From the NCBI RefSeq assembly GCF_018682675.1, contig NZ_JAFMTR010000033.1, forward strand, positions 1 through 64,000: a stretch of 64,000 bases of DNA, given 5' to 3'. The DNA comes from Sphingopyxis soli. GTDB taxonomy: Bacteria; Pseudomonadota; Alphaproteobacteria; Sphingomonadales; Sphingomonadaceae. A program made the position numbers and the translations under genes. The notes below the pieces were generated by a model, which was given only the letters and a program-made list of their open reading frames with translations, ran no database searches and had not been told where the DNA came from. Below are positions 31,411 to 62,357 of this stretch, piece by piece (the stretch's first letter is position 1; each line of letters opens with the position of its first letter).

Positions 31411-32207
31411 ATCGCGATCGCCTGACTGCCGCTCAGCACCGGCTCGCCGGCGCGGTTCCACAGCATCATGTCCTGCACCGACACGCCGCCGCGCGCATAG
31501 CCGGTCTTGGCCGAAAGCAGCCACCAGCCGTCGTCGGTCGTCGGCGTTCCGCCGAGCATGTTCACCGTCCAGTTCATCGAGCTGATCGGGCCGAATTCGG
31601 TGAACAGCGCCATCGCAGCTGGCGGCAGGGCGTCGCCGAGCGCGAGTAACTGGACCGCCGGATGGCAGGCGGGCTGGTCGACGAAGCGCACCCAGGTGAG
31701 ATATTCGCCGACGTCGCTTTTCCAGGCGAAGCGCGGACCGGTGGTCGGACGCATGTCGAAATGGCGCGTGAAGGACGGTCGGGCCTTATGCTCGGGCACC
31801 GGCTGAAGCGTCTCGGGATCGGGCGCTTCGGGCATCGTCAGGCGATTATGGTCGAGATGGCTCGCTCGCTCGCCCGAGAAGGCAAAGACGGCGGCGGTGC
31901 CGAAGCCCTGGTCGCTCGACACGCCGGCATCGATGAAGAGGCTCGACTTCGACTGGCGCAACACCCGGGTATTCACCGTGCAATCGCCGCCGACCGGGCC
32001 GACGAAGCTGATCTGCGCATAGCGCAGCGGCGCCTCGGTGGGATGGAGCGCCATCGCGCCGGCAAGCGCAACCGCCGAGCTGATCCCGCCATAGGCGGTG
32101 CGGCCCTGCATCCAGCCGTCGTCAATATGCCCGGTGGCGACATCGCCGTCGACGCGCAGCGTCGCGAGAAGCGCGTCGAGCGCGCTGGGGGAGGTTGCTT
32201 CAGTCAT
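31401..32207 (-). CDS. Acyl-CoA thioesterase-like protein
   Basis: A 268-residue double-hotdog protein of the TesB-like/DUF4442-type thioesterase superfamily. Hotdog 1 contains DDGWMQGRTAYGGISSAVALA, and hotdog 2 starts near WVRFVDQPACHPAVQLLALG and includes MNWTVNMLGG. These enzymes hydrolyse acyl-CoA to free acids. Convergent with the histidine kinase (10-base overlap). A palindromic repeat separates it from the reductase gene upstream. Confidence 0.85.
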   Translation of the reverse strand: MTEATSPSALDALLATLRVDGDVATGHIDDGWMQGRTAYGGISSAVALAGAMALHPTEAPLRYAQISFVGPVGGDCTVNTRVLRQSKSSLFIDAGVSSDQGFGTAAVFAFSGERASHLDHNRLTMPEAPDPETLQPVPEHKARPSFTRHFDMRPTTGPRFAWKSDVGEYLTWVRFVDQPACHPAVQLLALGDALPPAAMALFTEFGPISSMNWTVNMLGGTPTTDDGWWLLSAKTGYARGGVSVQDMMLWNRAGEPVLSGSQAIAIYA

Positions 32208-32250
32208 GCCTCATTCTTCTTGGTTGGTTCACCCCGAACCCGTTCGCCCT

Positions 32251-32312
32251 GAGCTTGTCGAAGGGCCGCTCTTGCTCCTGCGGGGAGAGAAGGACGGTGC
32301 TTCGACAAGCTC
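32251..32312. repeat. Palindromic REP-like element
   Basis: GAGCTTGTCGAAG (32,251-32,263) and CTTCGACAAGCTC (32,300-32,312) are perfect 13-bp inverted arms around a 36-base loop. This GAGCTTGTCGAA motif is a frequent intergenic palindrome in sphingomonads. Confidence 0.8.
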
Positions 32313-32331
32313 GGCTCGAACGGAAGAGGAG

Positions 32332-33495
32332 CTAGTCTTCGATCTGGAACGTCAGCCCCGCGTTCGCCGTAAGCCGCTCGATCAGCTTGTCGCCGAGCAG
32401 CGCCCCCGGCGTCCAGACGCCGCCTGCGCCCTTGTTTTCGAGCAGCGCCATCCCTGTCTCGGCGAGCATCTTCGACGTCGAGCCGTAGCCCGGATCGCGG
32501 TCGCCCTGCACACTGGTGCGAACCGTCGTGCCGTCGGGATATTCGCCGATGAACAGGACATCATAGAAGCCATTCTCGCGCTCCTCCTTGCTCGGGCCTT
32601 CGCCGGGCTTGATGCTCGGATCGAACGGGTTCGCCTTGGCCATCGCTTCCGCCATCGCTTTCCCGGCGTCGCCGATCGTCGTCATCACCATCTCGTCATA
32701 GACCAGATCCGCGCCCCACGGATGGCCGAGCAGGAAGTTGGTGCGGTGGACATTCTTGGTGTTGATCGGCGCCATCACGAAGGGCGCTGTCCAGGTGCCC
32801 GTCGCGCTGTCATATTCGGGAACGAGCCCGGTCGGCTGCGACGGTCCCTCGAAGCCCGGGGTCAGCGCGAAGGAGGATTTGAGCAGCAGCGCAAGCGATG
32901 GCCTTTTCGCGATGGCTTTCAGCGTCTCGGTCAGGCTCGCGATCGTGCCGCCCGAAGCGCCGCCGGCCATCTTGCGGACGCGGCCCTTGACGCGCGGCGC
33001 GGGCTTGCCGTGGCGTTTGACGGCCTCGGCCTGCAGGAAGGCGACGCCAAGGTCGAAGGGGATCGAGTCGAACCCGCACGAGAAGGTGATGCGCGCGCCC
33101 GACGCCCTGGCGGCGGCCTCATGCGTGTCGATCATCTCGCGCATCCAGCCGGGTTCGCCGCACAGATCGGCATAGGCGGTGCCGGCGCGGACGCAGGCGG
33201 CAACGAGTTCGCTGCCGTAAAGCTGGTAGGGGCCGACAGTGGTCAGGACGACCTTGGCGCTTTCCGCCATCTTGTCGAGGCTGGCGGGATCACTCGCGTC
33301 GGCGACGATCAGCGGCGTCTCCTCGTCGGCGCCGATCAGGTCGCGGACCTCGGCCAGCTTGGCAAGGCTGCGCCCCGCCATCGCCCATTTCGGCGCGTCC
33401 TTGTGACCCTTGTAGTGGTGCGCCAGATATTCGGCGACGAGGCGCCCGGTGAAACCGGTCGCGCCGTAAACGACGATGTCGAGATCGCGAGCCAT
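32332..33495 (-). CDS. Saccharopine-dehydrogenase-like NADP-binding reductase
   Basis: A 387-residue protein with N-terminal Rossmann fold (DIVVYGATGFTGRLVAEYLA) and the family motif TTVGPYQLYGSELVAACVRAG. Related to trans-acting enoyl reductases and saccharopine dehydrogenase NADP-binding proteins. It should reduce an acyl or lipid intermediate; the substrate is unknown. GGGAGG ribosome site upstream, and a TTTACGTAAACGTTAA palindrome 16-31 bases before the start suggests regulation with fatty or branched-chain acid metabolism. Confidence 0.85.
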   Translation of the reverse strand: MARDLDIVVYGATGFTGRLVAEYLAHHYKGHKDAPKWAMAGRSLAKLAEVRDLIGADEETPLIVADASDPASLDKMAESAKVVLTTVGPYQLYGSELVAACVRAGTAYADLCGEPGWMREMIDTHEAAARASGARITFSCGFDSIPFDLGVAFLQAEAVKRHGKPAPRVKGRVRKMAGGASGGTIASLTETLKAIAKRPSLALLLKSSFALTPGFEGPSQPTGLVPEYDSATGTWTAPFVMAPINTKNVHRTNFLLGHPWGADLVYDEMVMTTIGDAGKAMAEAMAKANPFDPSIKPGEGPSKEERENGFYDVLFIGEYPDGTTVRTSVQGDRDPGYGSTSKMLAETGMALLENKGAGGVWTPGALLGDKLIERLTANAGLTFQIED

Positions 33496-35330: not shown

Positions 35331-35358
35331 ATTTTGACAATAGGTGCAACCGATCTTC

Positions 35359-35454
35359 GTCATTGCGAGCGCAGCGAAGCAATCTCCACCCATCGGCCTC
35401 GCGCATGGTCGGTGGCCGGAGATTGCCGCGTCGCATTCGGCTCCTGGCAATGAC
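35359..35454. repeat. REP-like palindrome, GTCATTGCGAG family
   Basis: Starts GTCATTGCGAGCGCAGCGAA and ends TGGCAATGAC, with further pairing inside. It lies between the GH5 and dcd genes. Same family as the elements near 48.7, 49.0 and 62.3 kb. Confidence 0.75.
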
Positions 35455-35462
35455 GAAGCCCC

Positions 35463-43372: not shown

Positions 43373-43463
43373 GGCATGATAGGTGGTCCAGCGTGCCGCG
43401 AATAGCAAAGCAGGCTTTATTGGCGCTGGTGAAGGTAAAATTGCGCCGTCATTCAACCGCGAT

Positions 43464-43536
43464 CGTCGTCCCGGACTTGATCCCGGGTGCACGGCTTCAC
43501 CGCTGGAATCGACGCCGGATCAATTCCGGCATGACG
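43464..43536. repeat. Pair of short palindromes (CCCGGAC/CCGGAT type)
   Basis: CCCGG facing CCGGG (43,470-43,487) and GCCGGA facing TCCGGC (43,514-43,530) lie between the cobA promoter and the astD stop. They resemble intergenic repeats ending ATGACG. May terminate astD transcription. Confidence 0.5.
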
Positions 43537-43544
43537 AAAATGGA

Positions 43545-44990
43545 TCAGGAGTAGCTCTTGCGGATCAGCCCCGACCCTTCGGGATCGCGCAAACCCACAC
43601 CGATCGACGCCCGCATTGTGTCGCTTTCGGCGCTGGCGACCGGATAGGCGCAATAGTCGGCGGCGTAGAAGGCGCTCGGGCGGTGGTTGCCCGACAGGCC
43701 GATGCCGCCGAAGGGCGCGGCCGACGAGGCACCATTGGTCGGGCGGTTCCAATTGATGACGCCGGCGCGCGCATTGGCCCAGAACTGGTCGTAGAGCTGG
43801 GGCGTGCCGCCGATCAGCGACGCCGACAGGCCGAAGCTGGTATTGTTTGCCTCGGCGATCGCGGCCTCGAAGCTCCCGACGCGGACCACTTGAAGCAGCG
43901 GGCCGAAATGCTCGACGTCGGGCCGTTCGGGCATCGCGGTCACATCGATGATCCCGGGGGTGAGGAAGGGGCGCCCCTCGACCGGACGCGCCATGTGACG
44001 GACCACCTGGCCGCCGTTCGACATCAGGATCAGGAAGCTTTCGGTGAGATGGTCGGCCGCCTCATTGTCGATCACCGGCCCCATATAGGGCGCTGGGTCG
44101 GCGTGCGGATGGTCGACGATCAGCCGGTTCGACAGCGTCTTGACCGCTTCGAGGAGCGGCTCTGCCATGCTTTCCTTGACGATCAGGCGGCGCGCGTTGC
44201 TGCAACGCTGCCCCGCGCTGAGGAAAGCCGATTGCACCACCAATATGGCGGCGGTCGCGATATCGGCGGTGTCCCACACCACGATCGGATTGTTGCCGCC
44301 CATTTCAAGCGCGAGTATCTTGCCCGGCTTGTCGGCGAACTGGCGGCTGAGCGCGACGCCGGTGCGCGCAGACCCCGTGAACAGCAGCCCGTCGAGCCCG
44401 TCGTGGCCCGCAAGCGCCTTGCCGGTATCGGGGCCGCCGATGACGAGGCGCAGCACCTCTTCGGGGACGCCCGCGCTGTGGAACAGCTCGACGAGTTTCG
44501 CGCCAACCGCGGGCGTCTTTTCGGAGGGCTTGAACAGCACCGAATTGCCCGCGAGCAGCGCGGGGACGATATGGCCGTTCGGCAGGTGCGCGGGGAAATT
44601 ATAGGGGCCGAGGACGGCAAGCGCGCCGTGCGGCTTGTGACGCACCGCGTTGCGCAGCCCCATCGCTCCTTCGATGCGGCGGTTGGGCGTGCGTTCGGCA
44701 TAGGCCTTGATCGAAATATCGACCTTGTTCGCGACCGATTCGACTTCTGTCCGCGCCTCCCACAGCGGCTTGCCGGTCTCGCGGGCGATCAGGTCGGCCA
44801 GAACTTCGCCCTCGGCCTTCACCCGGTCGGCAAAGCGGCGGAGCGCTTCGGAGCGGAACGTCACCGCCTTCGACGCCCATGCGGGCCAGGCGGCGCGCGC
44901 GATCGCGACTTCCCGGTCGACATCGCTCGCCGCCCCGCGCCACAGTTCGTTGCCGGTCGCGGGTTCGAAGGAAAGCAGCGTGTCGCTCAT
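43545..44990 (-). CDS. astD: N-succinylglutamate 5-semialdehyde dehydrogenase
   Basis: A 481-residue aldehyde dehydrogenase of arginine succinyltransferase catabolism. NAD-binding and oxyanion region GPYNFPAHLPNGHIVPALLA; general base Glu in LEMGGNNPIVV; catalytic Cys in AGQRCSNARRL; C-terminal FGLSASLIGG. The ATG at 44,990 gives MSDTLLSFEP. Other ast genes are not in the window. A general aldehyde dehydrogenase is the alternative. Confidence 0.88.
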   Translation of the reverse strand: MSDTLLSFEPATGNELWRGAASDVDREVAIARAAWPAWASKAVTFRSEALRRFADRVKAEGEVLADLIARETGKPLWEARTEVESVANKVDISIKAYAERTPNRRIEGAMGLRNAVRHKPHGALAVLGPYNFPAHLPNGHIVPALLAGNSVLFKPSEKTPAVGAKLVELFHSAGVPEEVLRLVIGGPDTGKALAGHDGLDGLLFTGSARTGVALSRQFADKPGKILALEMGGNNPIVVWDTADIATAAILVVQSAFLSAGQRCSNARRLIVKESMAEPLLEAVKTLSNRLIVDHPHADPAPYMGPVIDNEAADHLTESFLILMSNGGQVVRHMARPVEGRPFLTPGIIDVTAMPERPDVEHFGPLLQVVRVGSFEAAIAEANNTSFGLSASLIGGTPQLYDQFWANARAGVINWNRPTNGASSAAPFGGIGLSGNHRPSAFYAADYCAYPVASAESDTMRASIGVGLRDPEGSGLIRKSYS

Positions 44991-47271: not shown

Positions 47272-48675
47272 GTGTTCAAAGGTTTGAAGCCCATCCTTTA
47301 CGGCGGCCGTGAAGTATGGCCGCTCGTCGAGGGTGGCAAGGGCGTGTCGGCGACCAACCATATGTCGAGCGGCGCCTGGGCGGCCGCGGGCGGGATCGGT
47401 ACCGTTTCGGCGGTCAATGCCGACAGCTATGACGCCGACGGCAATGTCATTCCGCAAATCTATCACGCTGCGACGCGCAAGGAGCGTCACCAGGAACTGA
47501 TCCAATATGCGATCGACGGCGCGGTCGAACAGGTGCGGCGCGCCTATGATATCGCGAGCGGCAAGGGCGCGATCAACATCAACGTGCTCTGGGAAATGGG
47601 CGGTGCGCAGCAGGTGCTCGAAGGCGTGCTCGAAAGGACCAGGGGTCTCGTGACCGGCGTGACCTGCGGCGCGGGGATGCCGTACAAGCTCAGCGAGATC
47701 GCGGCGAAGCACAATGTGAATTACCTGCCGATCATCTCGTCCGCGCGCGCGTTTCGCGCGCTGTGGAAACGCGCCTATCACAAGGTCGCCGACCTGATGG
47801 CGGCCGTGGTGTACGAGGATCCGTGGCTTGCCGGCGGCCACAACGGCCTGTCGAATGCCGAGGATCCGCGCAAGCCCGAGGATCCCTATCCGCGGGTCAA
47901 GGCGCTACGCGACACGATGCGCGCCGAAGGGATTTCGGATGACGTACCGATCGTGATGGCCGGCGGCGTCTGGTATTTGCGCGACTGGGAGCATTGGATC
48001 GACAATCCCGAACTCGGCCAGATCGTCTTCCAGTACGGCACGCGCCCGCTGCTCACCGAGGAAAGCCCGATCCCGCAGGAGTGGAAGGACCGCCTGCGCA
48101 CGCTCGACGAGGGCGACGTGCTGCTCCACCGCTTCTCGCCGACCGGTTTTTATTCGAGCGCGGTGCGCAATCCGTTTCTCCGCGACCTCGAAGCGCGCTC
48201 GGAACGCCAGATTCCCTATTCGAAACAGGAAGCGGGCGACCATGTGGTCCAGCTCGACGTCGGGGTGAAGGGCAAGAATTTCTGGGTCACCCCGCACGAC
48301 CGCGACCGCGCGCGCGACTGGGTTGCAGAGGGCTATACCGAAGCGCTCAAGACCCCCGACAACACCGTTGTCTTCGTCACCGACACCGACAAGGGCGTGA
48401 TCCGGAAGGACCAGGCCGACTGCATGGGTTGCCTTTCGCACTGCGGCTTTTCGGCGTGGAAGGACCATGACGATTATTCGACCGGCTACCTCGCCGATCC
48501 GCGCAGTTTCTGCATCCAGAAGACGCTGCAGGACATCGCGCATGGCGGCGACGTCGAACAGAATCTGATGTTCGCGGGCCACGCGGCGTTCAACTTCAAG
48601 ACCGACCCCTTCTACTCGAACAATTTCACCCCGACGGTGAAGCAGCTGGTCGACCGGATTTTGACGGGGGATTGA
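47272..48675 (+). CDS. Nitronate monooxygenase-like flavin oxidoreductase
   Basis: A 467-residue FMN TIM-barrel protein of the NAD(P)H-dependent flavin oxidoreductase family. The FMN region includes GLVTGVTCGAGMPYKLSEIA and PIVMAGGVWYLRDW. It is longer than typical nitronate monooxygenases (320-370), with a C-terminal extension carrying DCMGCLSHCGFSAW, a C-x2-C-x3-C set that could bind a metal or cluster. GTG start with GAGAAAGAGG-like ribosome site. Hairpin CTTCCG/CGGAAG at 47,201-47,216 upstream. Confidence 0.85.
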   Translation: MFKGLKPILYGGREVWPLVEGGKGVSATNHMSSGAWAAAGGIGTVSAVNADSYDADGNVIPQIYHAATRKERHQELIQYAIDGAVEQVRRAYDIASGKGAININVLWEMGGAQQVLEGVLERTRGLVTGVTCGAGMPYKLSEIAAKHNVNYLPIISSARAFRALWKRAYHKVADLMAAVVYEDPWLAGGHNGLSNAEDPRKPEDPYPRVKALRDTMRAEGISDDVPIVMAGGVWYLRDWEHWIDNPELGQIVFQYGTRPLLTEESPIPQEWKDRLRTLDEGDVLLHRFSPTGFYSSAVRNPFLRDLEARSERQIPYSKQEAGDHVVQLDVGVKGKNFWVTPHDRDRARDWVAEGYTEALKTPDNTVVFVTDTDKGVIRKDQADCMGCLSHCGFSAWKDHDDYSTGYLADPRSFCIQKTLQDIAHGGDVEQNLMFAGHAAFNFKTDPFYSNNFTPTVKQLVDRILTGD

Positions 48676-48683
48676 TCTCCCCC

Positions 48684-48716
48684 GTCATTGCGAGCGAAGC
48701 GAAGCAATCCAGAGCG
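48684..48716 (+). repeat. Left 33-bp inverted repeat of the GIY-YIG unit
   Basis: GTCATTGCGAGCG...AATCCAGAGCG. Its reverse complement matches 49,023-49,055 at 32 of 33 positions. It ends 3 bases before the GIY-YIG start codon. Confidence 0.85.
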
Positions 48717-48719
48717 GCC

Positions 48720-49022
48720 ATGCGCGAACGTCATCCGGCGGTTTACATCATGGCAAACAAGCGCAACGGCACGCTGTATACCGGCGTCACGTCGCAATTG
48801 GTGCAGCGGGTATGGCAGCATCGCGAAGGTTCGGGTGGCTTTTCCGAACGCTACGACTGCAAGTTGCTCGTTTGGTTCGAAATGCACGCGACGATGGAAG
48901 CCGCCATCGCGCGCGAGAAGCAGATCAAGGCGGGTAGTCGAGCAAAGAAGCTTGTTCTGATCGAAGCCGAAAATCCGCTTTGGCAGGATTTGTGGTCTCA
49001 GATCATCGACGGCAGCGAGTGA
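48720..49022 (+). CDS. GIY-YIG endonuclease-superfamily protein
   Basis: A 100-residue single-domain protein. GIY-YIG core: VYIMANKRNGTLYTGVTS, with the family Arg in LVQRVWQHREG and Glu in AIAREKQIKAG. Related small proteins (UPF0213/YhbQ type) are common but poorly understood DNA nucleases. ATG 48,720 follows the left repeat; the frame opens at 48,672 through the repeat. The right repeat begins at the base after the stop codon, so the gene is exactly framed, suggesting a repeat-linked mobile unit. Confidence 0.88.
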   Translation: MRERHPAVYIMANKRNGTLYTGVTSQLVQRVWQHREGSGGFSERYDCKLLVWFEMHATMEAAIAREKQIKAGSRAKKLVLIEAENPLWQDLWSQIIDGSE

Positions 49023-49112
49023 CGCTCTGGATTGCTTCGCTACGCTCGCAATGACGGCAAGTTGCAAAATTTCGTCATTGCGAGGAGCGTAGCGGCGAAG
49101 CAATCCAGAGCG
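49023..49112. repeat. Right inverted repeat plus a third copy forming a long hairpin
   Basis: 49,023-49,055 is the right arm of the GIY-YIG unit. 49,074-49,112 (GTCATTGCGAGGAGCGTAGC...CCAGAGCG) is a third copy in the left-arm orientation with a small insertion. The two face each other across 18 bases and can fold into a long stem, also usable as a bidirectional terminator. Confidence 0.8.
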
Positions 49113-62251: not shown

Positions 62252-62271
62252 GGGCGCTTGTCCTTTATCTC

Positions 62272-62351
62272 GTCATTGCGAGGAGCGAAGCGACGCGGCA
62301 ATCCAGAGCTGCCTATACCGCTCTGGATTGCTTCGCTTCGCTCGCAATGAC
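62272..62351. repeat. REP-like long palindrome, GTCATTGCGAG family
   Basis: CGTCATTGCGAGGAGCGAAG... and ...CTTCGCTCGCAATGACG arms face each other around GCTGCCTATACCGC, between aguA and the M28 peptidase gene. Closely related to the GIY-YIG flanking repeats, but without a gene inside. May act as a terminator. Confidence 0.8.
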
Positions 62352-62357
62352 GAAGCT

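Follow-up and report, generated by a model that had tools for sequence, protein, structure and literature searches.

The window analysed here corresponds to positions 1-64,000 of a 110-kb contig of Sphingopyxis soli (NZ_JAFMTR010000033.1; assembly GCF_018682675.1, 3.63 Mb in 116 contigs) and contains a small GIY-YIG nuclease gene set exactly between two inverted copies of a palindromic repeat. The gene (48720-49022, plus strand, 100 codons) is intergenic, between convergent reading frames, and lies between 35-nt arms that are complementary at 34 of 35 positions (97%) and 306 nt apart. The left arm (48682-48716, plus strand) reads inward and carries a CGTC tag at 48683-48686, while the right arm (49023-49057, minus strand) is the same palindrome inverted and has its TGACG end at 49052-49056. 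The ATG at 48720 stands 3 nt past the left arm, and the right arm starts immediately after the TGA stop codon (49020-49022); the near-identical framing and its spacing from start and stop codons, both claimed in the original prediction, are confirmed. Assuming equal base frequencies, approximately 2e-10 inverted pairs of 35 nt with at most one mismatch are expected by chance per 64 kb. An upstream frame opening with TTG passes through the left arm and reads VIASEAKQS (48672-48719); annotation may therefore give the window protein a false N-terminus.

Gene-less relatives of the palindrome had been predicted at 35.4, 49.1 and 62.3 kb, and all three are present, as a dimer, a single arm and a dimer, respectively. 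The first (35358-35455) is an imperfect head-to-head dimer with a GCAATCTCC variant on its left arm, the second (49073-49112, plus strand) is a third arm of the same family placed tail-to-tail with the right arm of the gene, and the third (62271-62352) is a full head-to-head dimer whose single-stranded form folds at -37 kcal/mol (z -10.3). Genome-wide (3.63 Mb), there are 27 exact copies of the 12-mer core GAAGCAATCCAG and none of the reversed control, and the spacers of those window-type dimers that were read measure 15-20 nt. For the window, an Rfam search returned two tRNAs only, and PADLOC returned no match.

The window protein matches the Pfam GIY-YIG domain (PF01541; E 4.3e-14, passing the family cut-off), and this is its sole Pfam domain. 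Residues Y9, Y20, G22, R30, H34, E66 and N85 are invariant in 20 relatives; in a second set of 36, Y9, Y20, E66 and N85 are invariant and R30 is nearly so. The catalytic residues of the domain are Tyr, Arg, Glu and Asn. Based on the domain match and the conservation of Y9, Y20, R30, E66 and N85, the protein belongs to the GIY-YIG superfamily. NCBIfam offers no family for it at the default threshold, and relaxing the limit to E 1 brings up weak matches only. The solved folds nearest to its structure model (predicted local distance difference test score, pLDDT, 90) are the UPF0213 proteins BH0048 (1zg2) and EF2693 (1ywl), followed by Slx1 and UvrC, all at Foldseek E >0.001; a profile search retrieves the same two UPF0213 chains, 1zg2 and 1ywl, so that sequence and fold both point to the UPF0213/Slx1 branch. 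The ratio of nonsynonymous to synonymous substitution rates (dN/dS) between the window gene and its two intact orthologues is 0.06-0.07. Of 18 pairs compared, 17 have values of 0.04-0.19 and one has no synonymous change (ratio undefined), several pairs being near saturation at synonymous sites. The gene is under purifying selection. Its intergenic position and single domain led us to reject a homing endonuclease.

As described by Di Nocera, De Gregorio and Rocco (2013; PMC3733652), CGTC-tagged repetitive extragenic palindromes (REPs) are spread over several phyla and every alphaproteobacterial order, mainly in Alphaproteobacteria, with head-to-head dimers predominant. They are defined there by an unpaired CGTC at one end, a CCA tail at the other, a stem of 8-9 bp and a loop of 4-5 nt; CGTC-1 of Neisseriae is identical to dRS3, and the repeats "apparently lack a dedicated transposase". 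With the repeats so described, the window arms share the outer tag (CGTC at 48683-48686), the CCA tail (CAATCCAG), the head-to-head dimers and the lack of an adjacent tyrosine transposase. Head-to-head order also predominates among the adjacent tagged pairs in 864 kb of sequence (18 head-to-head, 3 tail-to-tail and 1 head-to-tail). The difference lies in the stem, which in the window arm is interrupted, with a 5-bp outer helix and a short inner one in place of 8-9 bp and a 4-5 nt loop, and in the lack of a tag in some palindromes of relatives. We filed the window arms as CGTC-type REPs that depart from the definition in stem length. Three other arms of the genome, with 7-8 bp stems and 4-nt loops, and a dRS3-type arm fold strongly into hairpins as single strands (z -3.4 to -5.5). 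In 16 window-family arms from other genera, picked for equal length, the inner helix has seven cells changed on both sides (as many in 0 of 500 shuffles) and a covariation score beyond all shuffles; the number of pairs with changes on both sides (99 of 500) and that of further pair types (112 of 500) lay within the ordinary range.

Searching the source genome with the window protein at E up to 0.001, a search that would miss other GIY-YIG proteins such as UvrC, we identified six genes including the window gene (L001-L006), and inverted repeats frame all six. The palindrome cores are ATTGCGAGCGAAGCGAAGCAATCCAG, ATGCTGACGAAAGTCAGCAT and CCCCGCGAAGGCGGGG for L001-L003 and TCCCCGCGAAAGCGGGGA, TTCCTGCGAACGCAGGAA and GTCGAGCGAAGTCGAGACACC for L004-L006. 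Since the L003 and L004 cores are nearly alike, one base apart in the shared 16 with unlike outer ends, the palindrome kinds were counted as at least five. A CGTC or TGTC tag is carried by L001, L002 and L004 and is lacking in L003, L005 and L006. The expectation that gene copies elsewhere would be tied to the window repeat is borne out for orthologues and a sister clade, while the paralogues found by the genome-wide search are framed by repeats of their own instead. In the 864 kb, only three matched head-to-head tagged pairs lie 200-900 nt apart, and each encloses a GIY-YIG gene; all three were known beforehand, and 400 kb of this sequence came from around the window locus.

The last observation argues against the idea that the palindromes have another mover, such as a transposase of the Y1/RAYT (REP-associated tyrosine transposase) or insertion sequence type, or passive template switching, and that the GIY-YIG gene is a passenger, since matched tagged pairs enclose GIY-YIG genes only (three cases). 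A Y1/RAYT transposase (PF01797) has no match in the source genome, compared with 3 of 25 genomes in the genus and 5 of 14 control genomes, and was rejected as the mover in this genome. The correspondence between proteins and palindromes described below also argues against a passenger gene, whereas palindrome populations in genomes lacking the corresponding gene, and a larger repeat around one palindrome family, favour it; on balance we regard this explanation as quite unlikely.

The framing was then followed in 41 genomes (coded G; loci coded L), 25 of the genus and 16 of the order. Genes of the window type occur in 29 of the 41, and 95 loci were examined. Comparing flanks outside-in, a strong inverted pair was found in 69 of the 95 loci, against 9.7% of 3000 pairings of flanks from different loci. 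When arms were permitted to include the stop codon, framing was seen for 76 of the 82 core-clade genes across the order (partial matches of <60 query residues, reading frames >420 nt and a second clade being excluded), compared with 0 of 119 same-shape offset windows in the same loci. In a set of 80 assemblies, 53 of the 76 genes used are framed, against 2 of 259 offset windows; three loci were short of flank and one exceeded 420 nt. These 80 loci are the best 80 of at least 575 confirmed matches, a non-random sample with many metagenome-assembled genomes; by title, they are mostly proteobacterial, with single loci from several other phyla. Both arms carry the CGTC or TGTC tag in 56 of the 76 framed core genes and in 44 of the 53 framed genes of the 80-assembly set. 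The CGTC-1/dRS3 type, ATTCCCGCGAAAGCGGGAAT, frames the GIY-YIG genes L125, L230, L237 and L244, of which L237 (80-assembly set) and L125 (first set) are one gene present in both sets.

Chance, i.e., a small gene coming to lie in repeat-rich intergenic space, could draw on sites that gather different palindromes in different genomes. One such intergenic site in the window (43444-43565) has a CCGGACTTGATCC-type dimer here, other palindrome families at the same spot in relatives, and no palindrome in G007, G013, G016 and G020. The offset-window controls refute chance framing, and we give this explanation practically no weight.

A second, UPF0213-like clade is framed as well, in 10 of 10 genes (L144 and L059 excluded), with scores of 43-102 against a highest score of 24 among 16 controls, by a palindrome of another type, CCGTTCG...TCGA. 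A first count of 1 of 7 had suggested that this clade is unframed; that was an artefact of reading frames that enter the downstream palindrome, and using the end of the core gives 10 of 10. The C-terminus of most proteins of this clade extends into the downstream palindrome. In the window, a head-to-head dimer of the GAGCTTGTCGAAG / CCGTTCG type, the palindrome type that frames the UPF0213-like genes L145-L148, is located at 32196-32332; it is missing, with 14 nt instead, in seven of the eight anchorable relatives, and G024 has a similar dimer.

Palindromes correspond to proteins. In a tree of 92 proteins, read by eye, clades mostly have one palindrome each. Over 2268 non-syntenic pairs, taken from the 69 of 95 genes with a score of at least 30, protein identity correlates weakly with palindrome similarity (Spearman rho 0.16), a value reached in 0 of 1000 permutations. 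Among the 21 non-syntenic pairs with at least 68% identity, the arms are strongly similar in 10; of the remaining 11 pairs, 10 belong to one clade with two palindromes per side, in which the scorer may have compared different palindromes. Copy numbers agree in part with this correspondence. The window-type palindrome reaches higher copy numbers in the 10 genus genomes that have a gene framed by it (34-115 copies) than in the 15 that have none (0-92 copies; p 5e-4, or 0.0016 when the G022 pseudogene is counted with the latter), and the CCCAGCGAANGCTGGG palindrome is present in all 5 genomes that have its gene and in 3 of the 20 that lack it (p 0.001).

Palindromes that track protein clades would not be predicted if the proteins acted as Slx1/UvrC-like enzymes that lack genuine sequence specificity and resolve the cruciforms formed by head-to-head dimers in duplex DNA. 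Slx1 and UvrC are among the nearest folds and a dimer folds at -37 kcal/mol, both in keeping with such an activity; nevertheless, we consider it very unlikely to be the explanation.

The boundaries of the unit were examined in 13 pairs of gene copies. In six of them (L049/L103, L048/L101, L053/L117, L097/L103, L040/L043 and L040/L038), similarity ends at most 22 nt outside the left CGTCA and at most 11 nt outside the right TGACG. Within G024, L049 and L103 share 99% identity across 416 nt. In the clade comprising L048, L049, L101 and L103, the terminal TGACG supplies the TGA stop codon. The L103 unit lies within an outer imperfect inverted repeat (GCGGACGTYGC...), which is perhaps a palindromic target site; the left and right flanks of this site are separated in the relatives seen, so that no empty site was identified for it.

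Comparison of orthologous sites revealed both presence and absence of the unit. A gene-spanning match to the window locus occurs in 5 of the 25 genus genomes, so the repeat is not fixed at this locus; fixation in all relatives was an outcome named as refuting the original prediction. Two of the five units are decayed, with a TAG inside the gene in G022 and loss of the gene start and the greater part of the left arm in G016. In 10 relatives read closely at the window site, two have the unit, five have 18-86 nt (three of these bearing another REP-like hairpin or dimer, by eye) and three have unrelated sequence of 373-439 nt. Other inserts of ~370-440 nt were seen at this site (48.7 kb) in G024, G014, G023 and G007. 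The empty sites that had been anticipated were thus found, and they extend to other loci: the L040 unit of G021 is absent at the same site in G000 and G007, with 18 nt between anchors, and the 35.4-kb dimer is missing in G007, G020, G023 and G024, with 38-39 nt instead. G016 and G019 have a dimer of the same family at the 35.4-kb site, and four relatives were not anchored there; the 62.3-kb site, anchorable in only one of 10 relatives (G013), is empty in it (20 nt). The flanks are too diverged for base-level junctions or target-site duplications to be read. Chimaeric arms, one in L028 (~1471-1512) and one at the 35.4-kb site of G019, have the window-family ATTGC...GCAAT outside and a CCCCGGCGAAAGCCGGGG inner hairpin of another family, and look as if hairpin cores were swappable.

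Many gene units are syntenic among relatives, and some clades occupy a different locus in every genome compared. The former, together with the low dN/dS, suits a role in modulating DNA exchange or uptake, in which the protein would cut incoming or displaced single strands at its palindrome (as Ssn nucleases reportedly do at the NTS repeat of Neisseria), the palindromes would be markers rather than mobile and the flanking pair would only regulate the gene; in this role, head-to-head dimers could act as terminators. The clades at changing loci, the similarity that ends near the arms in several pairs, the near-identical duplicate in G024 and the empty sites all argue against it, and we consider such a modulator unlikely as an account of the whole, if somewhat less so than the explanations discussed above.

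Several observations weigh against a mobile unit with its own nuclease. Movement must be rare, since many units are syntenic. Boundaries are not sharp in 7 of the 13 pairs: similarity runs ~30-40 nt beyond the arms on one or both sides in L101/L103 and L048/L049, stops inside the arms in L095/L096, and, in four pairs from the L044-L099 clade, carries on as far as further palindromes lying outside the first. The window arms alone fold no better than shuffles (z -0.4 to 1.3), the palindromes of 14 of the 76 framed core genes are untagged and those of a further 6 are tagged in one arm, and the five other palindromes of the source genome have 0-2 copies each in 464 kb, both copies of the L004 palindrome being the arms of the L004 gene itself. 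What speaks most strongly against a repeat that depends strictly on the nuclease is the orphan populations: with no gene framed by it found, the window-type palindrome has 92, 63, 48 and 41 copies in G002, G005, G010 and G001, respectively, and the CCCCGGCGAAAGCCGGGG palindrome, whose association with its gene is not significant (p 0.086), has 70 copies in G012 and 53 in G001, likewise with no such gene. Additionally, among 20 CCCCGGCGAAAGCCGGGG-family dimers read by eye in G022, many lie inside a larger repeat, so their amplification may be due to another activity. In 16 genus genomes, counts of the CCAG and TCTCC sub-variants do not sort with the matching protein clade; their copies number 22 and 6 in G000 and 68 and 42 in G004 (L001-type genomes), and 40 and 53 in G003, 68 and 35 in G011 and 10 and 33 in G012 (L038-type genomes). 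A rule that the repeat occurs only where the gene does is not supported, given the orphan populations and mixed sub-variants, and the original term "nuclease-driven" is at most a hypothesis in view of large repeat populations in genomes without the matching gene.

The larger repeat of G022 was seen around CCGG-type dimers (L327-L346) and is palindromic, with ends like TTTCGACAAG...CCGTTCC; it is possibly a miniature inverted-repeat transposable element amplified by something else. Dimer spacers were also considered as remnants of gene starts, a weak hint that was left unused (1.9% of random 16-mers were as good, in one uncorrected comparison), and by eye the spacers of the CCGG-family dimers of G022 have no gene-start likeness.

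Taken together, the locus is probably a self-contained nuclease-palindrome unit, one of a widespread system resembling REP/RAYT in which a GIY-YIG nuclease replaces the Y1 transposase. The nuclease-associated REP unit of the original prediction, set apart there from RAYT systems, is well supported by paralogues and relatives framed by their own palindromes, by the empty sites and by the lack of a Y1 match in the genome. The likeness to REP/RAYT systems (REPtrons, REPINs) consists of a gene flanked by its palindrome, scattered gene-less inverted dimers and several families per genome; the difference is that those systems combine a GTAG tag with a Y1 HUH transposase, whereas here a CGTC tag accompanies a GIY-YIG nuclease.

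Work on Ssn (site-specific single-strand nucleases) reportedly showed that GIY-YIG nucleases cut single-stranded DNA only, in a sequence-specific manner, at the NTS repeat of Neisseria, and that homologues have other specificities. In that system, a single-domain GIY-YIG protein is reportedly paired with a cognate many-copy repeat, as here. The framed unit, the empty sites and the several parallel pairs per genome are what the present comparison, made from sequence alone, places beside it. By analogy, we propose that the GIY-YIG gene is the dedicated partner of CGTC-tagged REPs and may work in an Ssn-like manner; if the Ssn work already ties specificities to flanking repeats, part of our findings is known. 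The string 'GIY' is absent from the accessible text of PMC3733652 and was not found in that of a 2025 REP survey (PMC12306157). Among the matches listed in a literature search, no title or abstract opening links GIY-YIG genes with REP palindromes, most subscription papers lying outside the search.

GIY-YIG enzymes are hydrolytic nucleases, so the joining step of any transposition must come from the host. In the mechanism that we envisage, each small GIY-YIG nuclease of the UPF0213/Slx1-like branch would be paired with its own palindrome. An arm would fold when the DNA is single-stranded, as on the lagging strand, during transformation or in repair gaps, and the nuclease would cut it sequence-specifically. 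Two opposed arms could then release or expose the unit, which host replication or recombination would re-insert or copy, and the gene-less head-to-head dimers would be non-autonomous members. That the protein cuts its own hairpin and moves the unit is what we infer; the sequences themselves show the association, the correspondence of proteins and palindromes, and the presence or absence of the unit at orthologous sites.

More tentatively, and at somewhat less than even chance, GIY-YIG nucleases may constitute a second, independently evolved class of enzymes driving REPs, each spreading its own gene together with gene-less dimers and with several pairs per genome, which would explain the repeats tagged CGTC, dRS3 among them, as well as those of the CCGTTCG / GAGCTTGTCGAAG type. 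The genes of relatives in many bacteria, each between its own palindromes, suggest that a large class of bacterial repeats has its missing partners in these enzymes. A gene family matched to CGTC palindromes provides a ready list of enzyme-substrate pairs, with which the origin and movement of the repeats can be tested using short oligonucleotides. If true, the REP way of life would have been invented a second time, and the family would be a source of small sequence-specific nucleases.
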